DNA from: a candidate division BRC1 bacterium ADurb.Bin183 | GTDB taxonomy: Bacteria > Sumerlaeota > Sumerlaeia > MWCT01 | Length of the DNA: 64,000 nucleotides | Reading direction: 5' to 3' | NCBI GenBank assembly: GCA_002070185.1 | Contig: MWCT01000003.1 | Span: forward strand, 62,001-126,000 | Shown: positions 29,712 through 36,965 of the stretch, piece by piece | Position numbering within the stretch: the first letter of the stretch is position 1 | Layout: every line of letters starts with the position of its first letter | Made by a program: the position numbers and the translations under genes | The notes under the pieces: generated by a model | What the model saw: only the letters and a program-made list of their open reading frames with translations | What the model was told of the DNA's origin: nothing | Database searches by the model: none

Positions 29712-30644
29712 ATGCTTCGCGTCGCTTCACAATTAAAATCCCTCAAAATGCGCCTGCTGATTGTAACCATCTGCAACACTATCATCTCGCTTTGCGCCGT
29801 CATCGTTTTCTTCCTCATCTTGCAATATAAAACGGAAAGCGGATGGAACATATTCTGGAAGGAGTTCTTCCCCTTTTTATTCATATTTTTCGGGCTTAAT
29901 GCCGCGCTGAACCTTTTCACCACAAAGGTTATACTCAACCCCATCAACACACTCACACGTGAAATTAAAAACTTGGCGGACTCCGGCTCTCTTAATGATT
30001 TGAGCGCGGCGCACTATCCGGAGATGGAACTCCTTATCAAGTCCATAATAGACCTCGTCACCTTTGCCAATAAAGAACGCGCCTTCGCCCTCATGCTCAA
30101 AGAGGCGTCCCGCAGCCGCAGCAAAACTGCGCAGGTGGACTCCCTGACCGGTCTGCGCACCAGAGAATACATGGATATGTTTCTGCCGGAGGAAATCGCC
30201 CGCGCCGGACTGCTTAATGTTTCGCTTTCTATTTTGATGCTGGATGTGGATGACTTCAAATTTTACAACGACACAAACGGACACCCCGAAGGCGACCGCG
30301 CCCTCAAACAGGCGGCGGCATTGCTCCAAAATAACACGCGCAACCATGATATCTGCATCCGCTACGGCGGCGAGGAGTTCATGGTTATCATGCCGCGCAC
30401 GCCCCTTTATCAAGCCAAAGATGTGGCGGAACGAATCAGGAAAGCATTTTTTGAGACGCACTTTGATTTTGAACACAAACAACCGGGAGGAAAACTCACC
30501 ATCTCCATTGGCGTGGCGACATTTCCCGAACACGCCGCCGAACACGCCGCTCTTATTAAATGCGCAGACGTCGCCCTTTATCAGGCGAAACAAAAAGGCA
30601 AAAACATGGTCTGCGTGTTTGAACCAAATCCTATAACTCAATAG
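29712..30644 (+). CDS. Membrane-bound diguanylate cyclase (GGDEF)
   Basis: The 310-residue protein has two membrane helices (about 13-38 and 50-72) and a HAMP-like linker. The C-terminal GGDEF domain has DSLTGLRTREY, LDVDDFKFYNDTNGH and the catalytic GGEEF at 219-223. The inhibitory I-site RxxD is present as RNHD (210-213), so product inhibition is likely intact. It synthesises cyclic di-GMP. No separate sensory domain is seen between the helices (loop about 12 residues), so signal input would be through the membrane or a partner. It converges with the oxidoreductase gene with a 14-base overlap. Confidence 0.9.
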   Translation: MLRVASQLKSLKMRLLIVTICNTIISLCAVIVFFLILQYKTESGWNIFWKEFFPFLFIFFGLNAALNLFTTKVILNPINTLTREIKNLADSGSLNDLSAAHYPEMELLIKSIIDLVTFANKERAFALMLKEASRSRSKTAQVDSLTGLRTREYMDMFLPEEIARAGLLNVSLSILMLDVDDFKFYNDTNGHPEGDRALKQAAALLQNNTRNHDICIRYGGEEFMVIMPRTPLYQAKDVAERIRKAFFETHFDFEHKQPGGKLTISIGVATFPEHAAEHAALIKCADVALYQAKQKGKNMVCVFEPNPITQ

Positions 30645-31626
30645 CCTTATTTGTGCGGGCGGATTCCATTAAAGCAAACGCCAGACGCGCCGCATTAAAG
30701 GCGTCGGCGGCGCCTGCCAGCGGCTTTGCGCCTTCCTGCACGCACTGGATAAAATGACGCATTTCCTTCTGATAGGGGCTTTCGGATGAGGGCGATTCGG
30801 GAACGATTGTCCCAGAGGCAGAGCCCGCAGCCTTCTTCTTTTCCGCAAACGTCAAAGTCGCGGCGTCCCGCATGTCATACTCCAACATCCCCTCCGTGCC
30901 GCTCGCCTCAAAGCCCGTCAAGAACGAGCCATCCGGCTCCGCCCAGCTCGCCTCAACATGCGCCAGCACGCCGTTTTTGAATTTGATAATCCCCAGACCG
31001 TAATCCTCCGCAATCCCTTTCGAGCCGAGATTCTGTCCGAACACCCTTGCCGCCGCGCCGAACGTCCATAAGAGCCAATCAAGGTCGTGAATGGCAAGGT
31101 CAAGGAAAACGCCGCCGCTTCTTTTGTAATCCAGATACCAATTATCTTTTTTATCAAAGCTGGCGGGTTTGCCGCAGCAGCGTGAGAGGCGCACAATCCC
31201 CGCCTTGCCGATGCCGCCGGAAAGAATCGTCTCCCGCGCATGGGCATATTCCCAGAAAAATCGCACCACATGCCCCGCCATAAAAACAGGCTTGTAATTT
31301 CTCGCAGCGTCGCGGATGGCTTGCGCCTCTTTCAGATTTGAGGCAAGCGGCTTCTCGCAAAAGATATGCTTTCCCGCCGCCATATATTTTTTGATAAAAG
31401 GCAGACGAAACGGCGTGGGTATGGCGTGAATAACCAGCTCGGTTTCCGCATCTTTAATAACGTCGTCAATACTCGGCGACCAGCGCGCGCCGATGGCTTT
31501 TGCCAGTTTGCCGCCGCGCGTCTTATCCCTGTCCACGATCCACTTAATAGACGCCTCGGGCATCTTCGACAAATTTACCGCATGTATGGTGCCCATCAAA
31601 CCCGCGCCAACTACCGCTGCCTTCAT
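30631..31626 (-). CDS. Gfo/Idh/MocA family NAD(P)-dependent oxidoreductase
   Basis: 331 residues. An N-terminal Rossmann domain with VVGAGLMGTIHA, the sugar-oxidoreductase motif CEKPLASN (catalytic Lys of EKP) and GGVFLDLAIHDLDWLLW, with the G-x-x-x-D-x-x-x-H-x-x-D pattern, support a sugar or inositol dehydrogenase. The exact substrate (inositol, scyllo-inositol or another polyol) is not predictable. AAGGGG precedes ATG 31626. It may share a transcript with the upstream lipoprotein gene only if read from that side, as it lies downstream of it on the same strand, 80 bases away. Confidence 0.88.
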   Translation of the reverse strand: MKAAVVGAGLMGTIHAVNLSKMPEASIKWIVDRDKTRGGKLAKAIGARWSPSIDDVIKDAETELVIHAIPTPFRLPFIKKYMAAGKHIFCEKPLASNLKEAQAIRDAARNYKPVFMAGHVVRFFWEYAHARETILSGGIGKAGIVRLSRCCGKPASFDKKDNWYLDYKRSGGVFLDLAIHDLDWLLWTFGAAARVFGQNLGSKGIAEDYGLGIIKFKNGVLAHVEASWAEPDGSFLTGFEASGTEGMLEYDMRDAATLTFAEKKKAAGSASGTIVPESPSSESPYQKEMRHFIQCVQEGAKPLAGAADAFNAARLAFALMESARTNKAIEL

Positions 31627-31705
31627 ATTTTTCCCCTTATCATAATTTAATTATTAAGTAATCATCAATTTATAATCCCTAATTACTAACTCTTAATTAA
31701 TCGCC

Positions 31706-32803
31706 CTATCTCCTCCCCCCGCCTCTGGGCATGGGCGGCATACCGCCGCCGCGGCGTCCACCGCGTTCCGGCTGCGCCGCCCCCTTTTTTTTCGTTCCGG
31801 ATGTTTCTTCATCGGGGACGTCCAGCTCTGGGATGTTGAATTTGATTTTGATATCCTCCGGACTCATAGCGGGCTGACGCTCCACCTTCACCGCTTCGCC
31901 CTGCTCCAGAATCGAATAGCGATTCCCCGGCTTGAAGTCTATCGTCCAACAGGATGAGAGCCTGTCTCCGCTGACAACAACCGTTGCGATGCGGTAAGGA
32001 CCGGCGGCGACGTCCACGCTTCGGCTCTCATAGGGATTGAGCGGCATGCTGCTGCTTTCCTCTCCCGAAAGATAAAAGATGACCTGCTGCCCGCTGCCGT
32101 TCAAAAGGCTGACGCGCGGGCGCGCCTGCGGAATAACTCCGAGCAGCCGCACGGTGTCCGAGGAGTTATGCTCCATTGCAAACACCTCATCCACAATCTT
32201 GTCAATCTTCTCTTCCTTTTCCTTATCTTCCTGAGTTCCCCACCGCCCTTTGAACGGAATCAAACCCTTTTTCGTCATTTCCTCGACTATGGCGTTCTGC
32301 CTCCCCTCGGCGGTCATCCATTCCCCGTTGTGCAGCACAAGCCCTTTATCTTTCTGCTCAGCGGCAAACTTCATCTCCGGCGTCATCCAGATATCCTTGT
32401 ATTGAACCAGCCCCGCCTCTTGCGGGTTGACCCATTTATCATTGTAACGGACCAAGCCCTGCTCTTTGTATTCCTGCTCGATGAGGGCGGGCGTCTTTTC
32501 CAACGAGAATGAAATGCTCTCGCGGTTTAGAACATACGTTTCCACCAGTTTGGGATGCGTCGGATGGTAGCCCTCTTTTTCAAGCCGAATAAAAAAGGCG
32601 CTGCGCGCGGCTCGCTGAGCGGAACAGGGCGTCAGTATTGGATGGCTGCCGCCCAAAACGCGCCATGGTCCTTGAATGTTATCCGAATAAAGAACCGTTG
32701 CGCCCGGCGGGTCGGATTCAATGTGAACCTTGCCATTGCACCCCGACAGCGCCAACGCCAGCGCCACAACCATCGCGACTAAAAACCATTTGAAATTTTC
32801 CAT
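31706..32803 (-). CDS. Lipoprotein with PEGA-like domain and W-x-x-x-E tandem repeats
   Basis: The 365-residue protein has a signal peptide with lipobox LSGC (Cys22) and a PEGA-like beta-domain (KVHIESDPPGATVLYSD). Residues about 110-200 hold four tandem copies of a 20-25-residue motif, G-L-(V/I)-x-(Y/H/F)-x-x-x-W-x-x-x-E: GLVRYNDKWVNPQE, GLVQYKDIWMTPE, GLVLHNGEWMTAE and GLIPFKGRWGTQE. Then comes a beta-rich region and a Gly/Arg/Met-rich tail ending MPRGGGRR. The repeat motif appears in uncharacterised proteins of several planctomycete-like phyla, where its role is unknown. No enzyme domain is visible. Confidence 0.7.
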   Translation of the reverse strand: MENFKWFLVAMVVALALALSGCNGKVHIESDPPGATVLYSDNIQGPWRVLGGSHPILTPCSAQRAARSAFFIRLEKEGYHPTHPKLVETYVLNRESISFSLEKTPALIEQEYKEQGLVRYNDKWVNPQEAGLVQYKDIWMTPEMKFAAEQKDKGLVLHNGEWMTAEGRQNAIVEEMTKKGLIPFKGRWGTQEDKEKEEKIDKIVDEVFAMEHNSSDTVRLLGVIPQARPRVSLLNGSGQQVIFYLSGEESSSMPLNPYESRSVDVAAGPYRIATVVVSGDRLSSCWTIDFKPGNRYSILEQGEAVKVERQPAMSPEDIKIKFNIPELDVPDEETSGTKKKGAAQPERGGRRGGGMPPMPRGGGRR

Positions 32804-32835
32804 AATCTCCGCCTGATTTTACAATCTTATCGAAA

Positions 32836-32876
32836 CCCCGCACTCGGCGGGGAATTCCTTAGCCTGATGAGCCGAG
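32836..32876. other. Two mutually exclusive stem-loops in the lipoprotein leader
   Basis: CCCCGC (32836-32841) can pair with GCGGGG (32847-32852), or CTCGGC (32843-32848) can pair with GCCGAG (32871-32876). The two stems share bases, so only one can form. On the minus strand this lies about 35 bases upstream of the lipoprotein start. No terminator T-run follows. It may be an RNA switch or coincidence. Confidence 0.25.
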
Positions 32877-33220
32877 CAGCTCCTAAAAAAACGGTTGAAA
32901 AAATTGTCCCCTTTGGCGACCCGCCCATCTTTCAAACCCAAATAAAACGCGATATATTTAGCAAGCATAAAGAGCCCTTTGCAAAATTAAGAACCTTGTT
33001 TTTTGAATTAAAAACAAAATTTCTATGAATCCTTTCCATATCCATCGTCAATAAAATGTTAAATCGCCGCGATGGATATGCCGCGTTGGAAAGCAGTAAT
33101 GCGCCGGCGTGAGTGCGGAATATCCTTGACGGCGGCGGGTGTCTTTAACGAAAACCTCATAAAAGAACGGTTTGCAAAAATTTTATAAATAATCTATCTT
33201 TGAGCAGATCCTAAAAACGG
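32874..33220. repeat. Direct repeat pair in the intergenic region
   Basis: Copies at 32874-32894 and 33202-33220 share GAGCAG(C/A)TCCTAAAAA...ACGG and lie on the same strand 300 bases apart. The second copy also forms the left arm of the inverted repeat at 33209-33283. Between them is the perfect 11-base inverted repeat at 33037-33080. Confidence 0.4.
33037..33080. repeat. 11-base perfect inverted repeat
   Basis: CATATCCATCG (33037-33047) and CGATGGATATG (33070-33080) are perfectly complementary, with a 22-base spacer. It may form a hairpin or be a dimeric protein site. It is 226 bases before the aldolase start. The rest of the 500-base gap has an AT-rich hairpin at 32996-33017. Confidence 0.5.
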
Positions 33221-33283
33221 CGCTATTTTTTTGTAGGGCGGGTTGCCAGCCTGCTCCAGCATAAGCAATCAGCGATTTTAGGA
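33209..33283. repeat. Inverted repeat before the aldolase gene
   Basis: TCCTAAAAA (33209-33217) plus CGCT pairs with AGCG plus ATTTTAGGA (33271-33283). The stem begins 23 bases before the aldolase start. The loop holds a GC-rich segment with the common intergenic phrase GGCGGGTTGCCAGCCTGC. Confidence 0.45.
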
Positions 33284-33305
33284 CGGTCTCATAAAGGAAG
33301 CCGCT

Positions 33306-34331
33306 ATGGCTCTTGTGAATTTAAGAGATATTCTCGCCGACGCCCGCGCTAATAAATATGCCGTGGGCTCTTTTAATGTTGTTGACCTTGCCAGCCTTGA
33401 GGCGATTTTGGAGGCGGCGGAATTCATGCAGTCGCCCGTCATTCTTTCCATCGCCGAAGTCCACTTCAAATACGTCAACCTTGAAAACATAACCCCCGCC
33501 ATAAAGGAAGTGGCAAGACGCTGCTCCTGCCCCGTCGCTTTGCATCTGGATCACGGCGAATCCTTTGAAGCCATCATGCGCGCCTTGCGGGCGGGATTCA
33601 CCTCCATCATGTTTGACGGCTCCAAACTCGCCTTTGATGAAAACATCCGGCAGACCGCCGCCATCGTCAAGATGTGCCACGCAGTCGGCGTCACAGTCGA
33701 AGCGGAGCTGGGGCACATTGGCGGCGCAGAGGGCGGCAGCGGCGGCGCGGTTCCTCCGCCGGAGGAGTTTTACACCAAAGTGGACGAGGCGGTTCGATTT
33801 GTGAAAGAGACCAAAGTGGACGCGCTGGCGGTTGCCATCGGCACAGCGCACGGGCTTTACAAAGGCAAACCGCAGCTTGATTTTGAACGGCTCAAGGCGC
33901 TGAATGCCGCGCTAAACATCCCGCTCGTATTGCACGGCGGAACAGGTCTTTCCAACGATGATTTTGCCAGATGCATTGAAAATGGTGTGGCAAAAATTAA
34001 TTTCTACACAGGCATGAGCGTCGCCGCAACGGAGCGTATCAAAGATAAATTAAAAAGCAGCCCCGAAAGTTATGACTATCCCGGTTTGCTTTTAGAAGCA
34101 AAGGCGGGCATTTGCCGGACGGTCTCCGAACAGATTGACATTTTCCGCAGCAAAGGGATGTGCGCGCCGGATAGCTCGCTTTGCAGTTTTTGCTCCGGAT
34201 GTGTGATACCTCGTAAAATTCATGCGCCCGTCGGTGCGCCCGCTCCCGCCGCTGCCGCATCAGACGGCGAAGCCCTCGTGAAAAAAATTGCGGACGCCGT
34301 TATTGACGTCCTCCGGCAGATGAAAAAATAA
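33306..34331 (+). CDS. Class II ketose-bisphosphate aldolase with cysteine cluster and encapsulation-peptide-like tail
   Basis: The 341-residue product has the class II (zinc) aldolase core: HLDHGESFEAI, SIMFDGSKL, VEAELGHIGG, AIGTAHGLY and LHGGTGLSNDDF, matching fructose- or tagatose-bisphosphate aldolase. Beyond the core, residues 285-341 are extra. They comprise four cysteines at 286, 293, 296 and 299 (C-x6-C-x2-C-x2-C), a linker of Pro/Ala/Gly (about 306-319) and a terminal amphipathic helix, ALVKKIADAVIDVLRQMKK. That linker-helix form is what bacterial microcompartment encapsulation peptides look like. No shell protein gene is in the window, so the link is inference. Substrate unproven; it could be fructose- or another ketose-bisphosphate. 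Confidence 0.85.
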   Translation: MALVNLRDILADARANKYAVGSFNVVDLASLEAILEAAEFMQSPVILSIAEVHFKYVNLENITPAIKEVARRCSCPVALHLDHGESFEAIMRALRAGFTSIMFDGSKLAFDENIRQTAAIVKMCHAVGVTVEAELGHIGGAEGGSGGAVPPPEEFYTKVDEAVRFVKETKVDALAVAIGTAHGLYKGKPQLDFERLKALNAALNIPLVLHGGTGLSNDDFARCIENGVAKINFYTGMSVAATERIKDKLKSSPESYDYPGLLLEAKAGICRTVSEQIDIFRSKGMCAPDSSLCSFCSGCVIPRKIHAPVGAPAPAAAASDGEALVKKIADAVIDVLRQMKK

Positions 34332-34449
34332 CCGAATTAAATGCTATTTTTCCATTGCATCGGATGAATGGGGTTATTATGTAAGAGTGTTTTTTTCGTA
34401 AATATTCATAGGATAATTTGAAATACATTAGAAAGGAGCCGGGCCACCT

Positions 34450-34536
34450 ATGGGGAGTATAATCAAGAAGCGCCGCAAAAAAATCCGCAAACACAAATAC
34501 AGAAAACTCCGCAAACGGATGAAATTCCGCCGTTAG
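34450..34536 (+). CDS. bS22/AURKAIP1-COX24-like small basic ribosomal protein
   Basis: The 28-residue product, MGSIIKKRRKKIRKHKYR then KLRKRMKFRR, closely resembles the mycobacterial small-subunit protein bS22 (which starts MGSVIKKRRKRMSKKKHRK) and the COX24/AURKAIP1 domain. It is nearly all Lys/Arg with the conserved MGS-(V/I)-I-K-K-R-R start. AAAGGAG (34432-34438) is 11 bases upstream of the ATG and a terminator follows, so it looks like a real monocistronic gene. It is too short for most gene finders. The family sits on the 30S subunit; function beyond that is unclear. Confidence 0.8.
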   Translation: MGSIIKKRRKKIRKHKYRKLRKRMKFRR

Positions 34537-34562
34537 TTTTCGGTGTATGATACGTTTCTCTT

Positions 34563-34613
34563 AAGCGGCGCGAGAGGAATCCAACCCCTTGGCGCCGCTT
34601 TATTTTATATTTT
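34563..34613 (+). terminator. Intrinsic terminator after the bS22-like gene
   Basis: AAGCGGCGC (34563-34571) and GCGCCGCTT (34592-34600) form a perfect 9-base stem followed by TATTTTATATTTT. It lies 27 bases after the small gene and 15 bases before aroA, so it could also be an attenuator for aroA. Confidence 0.8.
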
Positions 34614-34627
34614 CAATAGGCAATCTA

Positions 34628-35917
34628 ATGGATATCAGAGTATCTCCCTGCAACAGACTGGAAGGGACGATTACCGCGCAACCATCTAAAAACTACACAA
34701 CGCGCTATCTGCTGGCGTCCGCGCTTGCTGAGGGCGAAAGCCTTGTCCGGCGCCCCGCAAAAAGCGACGACGCCGCCGCGCTCATCTCCTGCCTCCGCGC
34801 GCTCGGCGCGGAGATTGTCGAGCAGGGCGACGGCTGCCGAGTTCGCGGGTTTGGACGCCGCCCCCGAAACCCCGGCGTCATCAACCCGCACAATGCGGGC
34901 GCTGTCCTGCGCTTTCTGCTGGGAACGGGCGCGCTCCTGCCCGAAGTTCGCTTCATCACAGATTTTCCCGAATCGCTCGGCAAACGCCCCAATGCGGACA
35001 TCCTCGACGCGCTTGCCCAACTGGGCGTGAAGAGCGAATCCGATAACGGCAGACTGCCCATCACACTCTACGGCGGCAATCTGCGCGGCGGCAAAATCAC
35101 AGTCTCCGGCGAGAAAAGTTCCCAATTCCTCAGCTCGCTCCTCTTCCTTGCGCCGCTTATCGGCGAACGCGTTGAAATCGCCGTCGTCGGCAATCTTAAA
35201 TCGAAGGCGGCGGTCTGGCAGACGCTGGATGTCATTCGCGAGGCGGGCATAGACATCAAGGCGGACGACGCGCTGGCATCTTTCGTCATCGAGGGCGGAC
35301 AGCGTTATCAGCCCCGCGTCTATGAGGTCAACGGCGACTGGCCCGGCTCTGCGGCGGTGCTGGCGGCGGCGGCGGTCTCCCCCGAATCCGATGTTGCCAT
35401 AAACGGACTTTGCGGCGACAGACAAGGCGAGCGCGCCATTGTGGATGTTCTCGCCGCTATGGGGGCGGACATCGCTTTCGAAAACCGAAGCGCGCGCGTG
35501 CGCGGCGGCGGGATGCTTCGCAGTGTTGAATTCGACGGCGACAAAGCCACAGACGCCGTTTTGGCGATGGTCGGCGCTGCGTGTCTGGCGCAGGGGACGT
35601 CCCGATTTTTTAATGTGGAAAATCTGCGCCTCAAAGAATGCGACCGCATCGCCGAGCCGCTTGGCGAACTTGCAAAACTCGGCGTGCGCGCATCCGAAAA
35701 GCGGGATGAGATTATTATCGAGGGCAACCCAGCCGGCTTTGCGGGCGGCATGGCGCTCAATGGACGCGGCGACCACCGCGTCATTATGCTGCTGACTATC
35801 GTCGGGATTCGCACGCAAAAAGGAATCATTATCGAAGGCGCCGAGCATATCGCAAAATCATATCCCGATTTTTTCCGGCATATGGAATCGCTCGGCGCAA
35901 AATTCGAATACATCTAA
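34628..35917 (+). CDS. aroA: 3-phosphoshikimate 1-carboxyvinyltransferase (EPSP synthase)
   Basis: The enzyme joins shikimate-3-phosphate and phosphoenolpyruvate in chorismate synthesis. ATG 34628 is chosen over the upstream open frame from 34589 because it begins with MDIRVSPCNRLEG. 429 residues. The PEP/S3P residues are mostly kept: Lys21 and Arg26 in PSKNYTTR, SSQFLS, ECDRIA and GDHR. The NAGTA-MRP loop reads NAGAVLRF (89-96), so positions equal to E. coli Thr97 and Pro101 are Ala and Phe. aroF starts 19 bases downstream. Confidence 0.88.
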   Translation: MDIRVSPCNRLEGTITAQPSKNYTTRYLLASALAEGESLVRRPAKSDDAAALISCLRALGAEIVEQGDGCRVRGFGRRPRNPGVINPHNAGAVLRFLLGTGALLPEVRFITDFPESLGKRPNADILDALAQLGVKSESDNGRLPITLYGGNLRGGKITVSGEKSSQFLSSLLFLAPLIGERVEIAVVGNLKSKAAVWQTLDVIREAGIDIKADDALASFVIEGGQRYQPRVYEVNGDWPGSAAVLAAAAVSPESDVAINGLCGDRQGERAIVDVLAAMGADIAFENRSARVRGGGMLRSVEFDGDKATDAVLAMVGAACLAQGTSRFFNVENLRLKECDRIAEPLGELAKLGVRASEKRDEIIIEGNPAGFAGGMALNGRGDHRVIMLLTIVGIRTQKGIIIEGAEHIAKSYPDFFRHMESLGAKFEYI

Positions 35918-35936
35918 CAAGAAAGGTATAAACATT

Positions 35937-36965
35937 ATGATTATCGTCATGAAAAAAAACGCCACAGAGGCGGAACTTGAAGCCGTCAAAGACGCCATCA
36001 TACGGCTGGGATACAAACCCCATGCTATTCAAGGCGTAGAGAGAACGGTCATCGGCGCAGTGGGACACGAAGATAAAACCCCGCTGCAAATACTCGAACA
36101 GACAGAAGGCGTGGAAGCCGTCATCCCCATCCTCAAACCGTGGAAACTCGTCAGCCGCGACATCAAACCCGAACGCTCCGTTGTTGATGTGGACGGCGTT
36201 ATCATTGGCGGAAAAGAAATAACAATCATCGCCGGTCCCTGCTCCGTCGAATCCGAAGAGCAAATCATCGAAACGGCGCAGGCGGTCAGGGCGGCGGGGG
36301 CAAAAATCCTCCGCGGCGGCGCCTACAAACCCCGCACATCGCCCTACGCCTTTCAAGGACTCGAAATCACCGGGCTCAAACTGCTGGCTCAGGCGCGCAG
36401 CCTCACAGGGCTTAAAATCGTCACAGAAATCGTCTCCGTCTCGGAAATAGATCTCATCTGCGAATATTCGGACATGATACAAATCGGCGCGCGAAACTGC
36501 CAGAACTACGCCCTCCTCAAACGCGTGGGACAGACGCGCCTCCCCGTCCTCCTCAAGCGCGGCATGGCGACAACCGTCAAAGAATTTCTCATGTCCGCAG
36601 AATATATCATGTCGCAAGGCAATTATCAAGTCGTCTTATGCGAACGCGGCATACGCACTTTTGAAGATTCGACCCGATTCACGCTCGACCTTAATTGCGT
36701 CCCCGTTCTCAATGAACTCACACACCTCCCCGTCATTGTTGACCCAAGCCACGGCACGGGCAACTGGCGCTACGTCACGCCAATGGGACGCGCCGCAATC
36801 GCCGCAGGCGCGGACGGGCTCACCGTTGAGGTGCATCCCAATCCCCGCGAGGCATTCTCGGACGGTCCGCAATCTTTGAAACCTGAAAAGTTCACGGAGT
36901 TCATGAGCGAAGTGCGCAAGATTGCCCTTGCCATGGGACGCGACCTTGCCATACCGAAGATTTGA
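35937..36965 (+). CDS. aroF: DAHP synthase, type I-beta with N-terminal ferredoxin-like regulatory domain
   Basis: 342 residues. Residues 1-75 are the ferredoxin-like domain seen in Thermotoga-type DAHP synthase ([17 protein letters not shown] start), which mediates feedback by aromatic amino acids in that group. The catalytic barrel has [34 protein letters not shown] and VDPSHGTGN. It catalyses PEP plus erythrose 4-phosphate to DAHP, the first shikimate step. The coupling with aroA suggests a shared transcript. Confidence 0.93.

Follow-up and report, generated by a model that had tools for sequence, protein, structure and literature searches.

The aldolase gene and its core

The window (the whole 64,000-nucleotide stretch of DNA that was analysed) lies on contig C3 of a Candidatus Sumerlaeota genome (G000) and contains, at 33306-34331 (+), a single open frame of 341 codons plus a stop. 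Its 341-aa product, which has orthologues in related genomes, is a class II (PF01116) aldolase with a C-terminal tail that we interpret as an encapsulation peptide (EP). Residues 4-284 (33315..34157, +) form the TIM-barrel core and are spanned by F_bP_aldolase (Pfam PF01116, E 1.1e-96), with 324 bits against a gathering score of 25.5 and model positions 1-276/277 covered; the first-pass annotation, which had described a complete aldolase core ahead of the tail, is correct on this point. A Foldseek search matches the core to 8q59 and 7ncc, both class II aldolases, with a target TM of about 0.94–0.95, and its nearest folds are SqiA and other class IIb aldolases.

The catalytic and zinc-binding motif HLDHG occupies residues 80-84 (33543..33557, +), and D82 and H83, together with H182 and H210, are invariant across 13 homologues. 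From what is known of class II aldolases we take D82 to be the catalytic aspartate and H83 a zinc ligand, with H182 and H210 presumably the further ligands. The second phosphate-loop motif, KINFYTGMS (residues 230-238; 33993..34019, +), departs from the expected form: in alignments that include homologues, 1rv8 has KINTDTDLR and 8q57 has KVNVDTELR at this place, so that N232-F-Y-T-G-M-S238 replaces the N-x-D-T-D/E-x-R of the structurally known FBP/TBP/SFP aldolases. N-x-D-T-D/E-x-R is the motif that contacts the distal phosphate of FBP, and the distal-phosphate motif of a fructose or tagatose 1,6-bisphosphate aldolase is thus missing from the window aldolase. The best NCBIfam matches are ketose-bisphosphate aldolases, of which TIGR00167 exceeds its cut-off; the equivalog cut-offs of TIGR01859 (304.7 < 343.05) and NF005284 (361.1 < 406) are missed.

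The immediate neighbours of the gene are Gfo/Idh-like, lipoprotein-like, aroA-like and aroF-like (DAHP synthase) genes, and a search within the window for shell, sugar-kinase and isomerase genes near the aldolase found none. The order Gfo/Idh-like, lipoprotein-like, tailed aldolase, aroA-like, aroF-like (30631-36965) is kept in the Sumerlaeota relative G001, and aldolase-aroA-aroF in the relative G002; despite this conserved neighbourhood, the tailed aldolase has no obvious tie to aromatic biosynthesis.

The cysteine cluster, linker and terminal helix

Beyond the core lies a cluster of four cysteines, C286-x6-C293-x2-C296-x2-C299 (34161..34202, +), a candidate metal site that probably binds Zn or an Fe-S centre in a structural role. 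It is followed by an Ala/Pro linker (residues 300-319; 34203..34262, +), which is poorly conserved and predicted to be disordered (AlphaFold2 pLDDT <50), and by an amphipathic C-terminal helix (residues 321-340; 34266..34325, +), the putative EP, with the sequence ALVKKIADAVIDVLRQ. The cysteine spacing, the linker and the terminal helix are all as first described. AlphaFold2 gives a confident barrel and a helix whose blocks are at about 70–74; since the model was built from 13 sequences, confidence in the helix is moderate.

The hydrophobic moment of the helix is 0.58 (shuffle p = 0.002). Because the moment alone separates known EPs poorly, a profile of 13 positions was used instead, trained on 29 EP-like helices from aldehyde dehydrogenases, PduL, PF00596 aldolases and one unassigned protein adjoining a BMC-H gene, with no PF01116 protein included. 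The window tail scores 9.8 and is beaten by only two of 1277 other, unrelated C-termini; these two (11.3 and 15.1) are identical in score to the pair of tailed PF01116 aldolases at the Actinomycetota locus L243. The tails of G001, G002, L072 and L073 are unremarkable by this profile. With an amphipathic terminal helix of ~15–20 residues, a flexible and poorly conserved linker, and a bacterial microcompartment (BMC) context, the tail agrees in form with the published definition of EPs (PMC8217296, PMC12339742).

No description of a Cys cluster between an aldolase core and an EP was found in the literature searched. Short Cys clusters (CRGC-x4-C-x2-C, CEQC, CMEC, CSLCKLC) are also seen near the C-termini of PF00596 aldolases encoded in these same genomes (L258, L261, L265 and L269), with an EP-like helix after the cluster in L258 and L261 and none in L265 and L269. 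A Cys cluster near the EP position recurs in two unrelated aldolase families, PF01116 and PF00596.

Distribution of the tail among homologues

Four orthologues from the same order of Candidatus Sumerlaeota (60–76% identity) keep the four cysteines and the helix, and differ from one another in linker length and sequence. A scan of public genomes finds the tailed architecture in Sumerlaeota, Poribacteria, Bacillota, Latescibacterota and Actinomycetota. All four cysteines are invariant in 13/13 aligned homologues from at least five phyla, and across the alignment the linker varies and the helix pattern is kept, a combination that is the hallmark of an EP. The first cysteine is absent from one Actinomycetota subclade.

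In the aldolase tree, three label changes are needed to account for tail presence and absence, and the history is compatible with one gain and two losses. The aldolase of a Phycisphaerae relative (L079:4759-5622) stops just past the first tail cysteine (GSGNVCQ stop), as if the tail had been lost; a PfkB kinase gene is next. In an Actinomycetota genome with no PF00936 match (G463), two adjacent PF01116 aldolases with EP-like tails are followed by an FGGY kinase (L243:7415-9487).

A rival function for such a gene is that of a housekeeping glycolytic FBA whose tail is incidental. In keeping with this, the core has an ordinary class II aldolase fold, and the genes beside it are aroA and aroF (for DAHP synthase) instead of genes for sugar metabolism. 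We nevertheless consider it very improbable: a second FBA-like gene is present on contig C10 of the host genome, within Sumerlaeota the tailed gene is restricted to one order, the tail is conserved across phyla, and the distal-phosphate residues are missing.

Microcompartment genes of the host genome

The host genome has BMC domains at three places, one of them a fragment at the edge of a contig that is closest to BMC-T, and contains both BMC-H gene(s) and a BMC-P triplet. Genes for aldehyde dehydrogenase (AldDH) and PduL lie side by side, both products with N-terminal EP-like helices, and PduS and acetate kinase genes adjoin the BMC-T fragment. Away from the shell genes, contig C2 encodes a PF00596 aldolase whose C-terminus is an EP-like helix, ending QIESIVREVLKKQGIL. 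Shell genes and the BMC-P triplet are dispersed over contigs C1, C5 and C13, as in FRAG BMCs, and BMC-related genes as a whole over C1, C2, C5 and C13, with the tailed PF01116 aldolase on C3. Judged by this dispersal and by the BMC-P triplet, the host BMC would be a dispersed, FRAG-like one.

Directly after the BMC-H gene on C13 is a gene for a 266-aa protein (L007:17781-18578) with an EP-like N-terminus, MALDRKQIEDIIREEILKYL; it has no Pfam or NCBIfam match and is a candidate BMC cargo. BMC-P genes are present in 25/39 other Sumerlaeota genomes (G001-G039), mostly three in each and often on different contigs.

The first-pass annotation had staked its reading on a search of the genome for shell genes and on the tails of close homologues. 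Shell genes are present, and close homologues (the four Sumerlaeota orthologues and those of other phyla) keep the tail. Its link to PVC-type bacteria needs correcting: judged by its named relatives, the host belongs to Candidatus Sumerlaeota and not to the PVC group, and the aldolase usual in PVC microcompartments is of PF00596, not PF01116; the host carries an EP-tagged PF00596 aldolase as well.

Linkage and co-occurrence with shell genes in other genomes

Physical linkage of the tailed aldolase to BMC genes is observed at two loci only, both in Bacillota. At the Clostridia DTU080 locus (L073) the genes are BMC-P, acetate kinase, tailed aldolase, two BMC-H, PduL, PduS, BMC-T and AldDH, with ETF and FAD oxidase genes following the cluster; in UBA5435 (L074) they are DeoR, tailed aldolase, BMC-H, BMC-H, PduL, AldDH, PduS, BMC-T and a PfkB kinase. 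No shell gene was found beside the tailed aldolase in the window or in the Sumerlaeota and Actinomycetota loci read.

Co-occurrence was examined across 397 sampled Actinomycetota genomes, using PF00936 as the shell marker. PF00936 is present in 20/20 genomes with the tailed gene, compared with 31/377 others (Fisher p 3e-20) and with 0/10 genomes that have the closest tail-less homologues (Fisher p 3e-8), both p-values being inflated by kinship, as many of the sampled genomes are close relatives. The association has exceptions. G463 encodes a pair of tailed PF01116 aldolases but gives no PF00936 hit; a Poribacteria bin (L072) has the tail and an EP-like PF00596 aldolase and lacks shell genes, a combination suggesting that the bin is incomplete. 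With these two genomes, the association of tail and BMC is not a strict one. Conversely, 21/35 other Sumerlaeota genomes carry BMC-P but lack the tailed aldolase, so that the association there is one-way only, and BMC genes are also found in the genomes of the tail-less relatives L081, L082, L090 and L118; the shell thus does not require a tailed aldolase.

These exceptions bear on a second reading, in which the tail would be a helix for oligomerisation or for binding a partner, would carry a structural zinc knot and would have nothing to do with BMCs, co-occurring with them through shared ancestry and sugar catabolism. G463, L072 and the close kinship of many Actinomycetota genomes in the test are what such a helix would lead one to expect. 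We nonetheless think this reading rather improbable, as the tailed gene lies inside the BMC clusters of two Bacillota, the tail pattern matches the EPs of AldDH, PduL and PF00596 aldolases, and shell genes accompany 20/20 tailed and 0/10 tail-less genes. The proposal that the tail has the form of a cargo-targeting peptide is upheld by its EP profile, helix, conservation and place in the two Bacillota clusters, and the earlier interpretation of a BMC cargo tail largely holds. That the tailed PF01116 aldolase is BMC cargo is well supported, and we consider it highly probable.

PF00596 is present in all 16/16 genomes tested, in several with an EP-like tail. PF01116 as a replacement of PF00596 in the part of sole signature aldolase was rejected on this count, and the PF01116 enzyme fits best as an additional, second aldolase.

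Possible substrate and products

With the distal-phosphate motif missing, and with FGGY kinase, PfkB kinase and D-lyxose isomerase genes as neighbours elsewhere, we infer a peripheral ketose phosphate aldolase that would yield DHAP and a hydroxyaldehyde. XylB-group FGGY kinases adjoin the tailed aldolase at L076 and L078, with no second kinase beside the gene, and tail-less enterobacterial relatives adjoin D-lyxose isomerase (PF07385) and a PfkB kinase. In the tail-less relatives L087 (enterobacterial) and L144 (Tolumonas) a sugar ABC transporter-like gene, D-lyxose isomerase and PfkB form operon-like sets, with an FGGY kinase in addition at L144; these are likely to be lyxose-type sugar pathways.

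The FGGY and PfkB kinases near tail-less relatives could also point to a bisphosphate substrate. The window protein would then still be BMC cargo but would act on ketose bisphosphates: a pair of kinases would make a ketose 1,6-bisphosphate, the product would be glyceraldehyde 3-phosphate, or DHAP would be recondensed in the lumen, and AldDH would not be fed. The kinases of L144 (FGGY and PfkB), the PfkB kinase of L074 and the NCBIfam matches to ketose-bisphosphate aldolases, with TIGR00167 above its cut-off, all speak for this. They have to be set against the replacement of N-x-D-T-D/E-x-R by N-F-Y-T-G-M-S, the missed equivalog cut-offs for FBP and ketose-1,6-bisphosphate aldolases, the second FBA-like gene on C10 and the lone FGGY kinase at L076 and L078, and on balance we regard a bisphosphate substrate as unlikely.

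Possible end products are indicated by two loci. An Actinomycetota BMC locus (L245, G121 C6) contains a PF00596-EP aldolase, PduL, AldDH and PduS; beside it lie genes for the lactate racemase LarA and for an FAD-linked oxidase, suggesting lactate as a product. Together with the ETF and FAD-oxidase pair of L073, the LarA and FAD oxidase genes of L245 suggest a 2-hydroxy acid product.

Proposed role

The window aldolase most likely acts in a metabolosome that oxidises aldehydes, as its second aldolase, with a stereochemistry distinct from that of the first. The sequences themselves show the tail and its conservation, the shell and core cargo genes of the host, the operon link in Bacillota and the co-occurrence; encapsulation, substrate, product and metal are inferred. 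In this scheme the core would cleave a sugar of the ketose 1-phosphate type, releasing DHAP together with a short hydroxyaldehyde akin to lactaldehyde or glycolaldehyde. The terminal helix, on its disordered linker, would bind other cargo and the shell of a dispersed, FRAG-like BMC, and the aldolase would thereby be packed with the CoA-acylating AldDH, PduL and the PF00596 aldolase. Inside the compartment the aldehyde would be oxidised to an acyl-CoA, which PduL would convert to an acyl-phosphate and acetate kinase to ATP and the acid. As a whole, this explanation (a metabolosome cargo aldolase, ketose 1-phosphate-type cleavage and aldehyde oxidation) is the best available, with a probability of about 0.7.

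PF01116 and PF00596 aldolases differ in C3 stereochemistry. The PF01116 enzyme would therefore probably complement the co-occurring PF00596 aldolase on sugars of the other C3 configuration, which would widen the range of sugars used. A bolder and more doubtful extension is that of a widespread dual-aldolase metabolosome, in which a PF01116-Cys4-EP enzyme might be co-encapsulated with an EP-tagged PF00596 enzyme, cover both C3 configurations and serve as a FRAG-like signature enzyme, with the Cys cluster possibly a metal or redox packaging switch.

Comparison with known systems

The closest large tail-less family is PRK06801 (Enterobacteriaceae ketose 1,6-bisphosphate aldolase), which shares about 50% core identity and KINFYTGMS with the window aldolase, but ends at about residue 286 without a Cys cluster or helix and is encoded beside D-lyxose isomerase and PfkB. 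The class II sulfofructose phosphate aldolase SqiA (8q57, 8q59) is the top neighbour of the core in both fold and sequence. Judged by its name, it presumably cleaves a ketose 1-phosphate with a sulfonate in place of the distal phosphate; it differs in keeping the VDTELR motif and in having no tail.

SPU BMCs contain DeoC (PF01791) and RpiB. They are similar to the system proposed here in having an aldolase-type signature enzyme that acts on a sugar phosphate, but the aldolase is of another family, and no DeoC or RpiB was seen in the L073 and L074 operons.

PVM/PVM-like and ACI BMCs carry an EP-tagged PF00596 class II aldolase (PMC8217296; PMC4207490). They resemble the host system in the aldolase with a C-terminal EP (stated for ACI), the AldDH, the BMC-P triplet (ACI) and the cleavage of a sugar phosphate to an aldehyde and DHAP. 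They differ in that their aldolase is PF00596, which the host has too, whereas here it is PF01116, the genes are dispersed and the lineage is Sumerlaeota; the contiguous locus that marks PVM BMCs (with PF00596, in Planctomycetes/Verrucomicrobia) is lacking in the host. PF01116 or FBA as BMC cargo was not found in the main text of two BMC surveys or in literature searches. EP-tagged aldolases as such are already known; the variant proposed here is one of the PF01116 family in a FRAG-like metabolosome.

FRAG BMCs combine a BMC-P triplet with shell genes spread over several sites, and no signature enzyme is obvious in them, a lack attributed in dispersed BMCs to the scattering of their genes (PMC8217296). 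The host resembles them in its scattered shell genes, BMC-P triplet and AldDH without an adjacent signature enzyme; it differs in that none is listed for FRAG BMCs, whereas the host offers two EP-tagged aldolases as candidates. With an EP-tagged enzyme encoded far from the shell genes, dispersed BMCs gain a class of candidate substrates that is open to direct test, ketose phosphates that yield DHAP, and missing BMC cargo can be recovered by searching genomes for EP tails, not by searching for neighbours. If the dual-aldolase metabolosome is real, some of the FRAG-like BMCs to which no signature enzyme is assigned would gain one.
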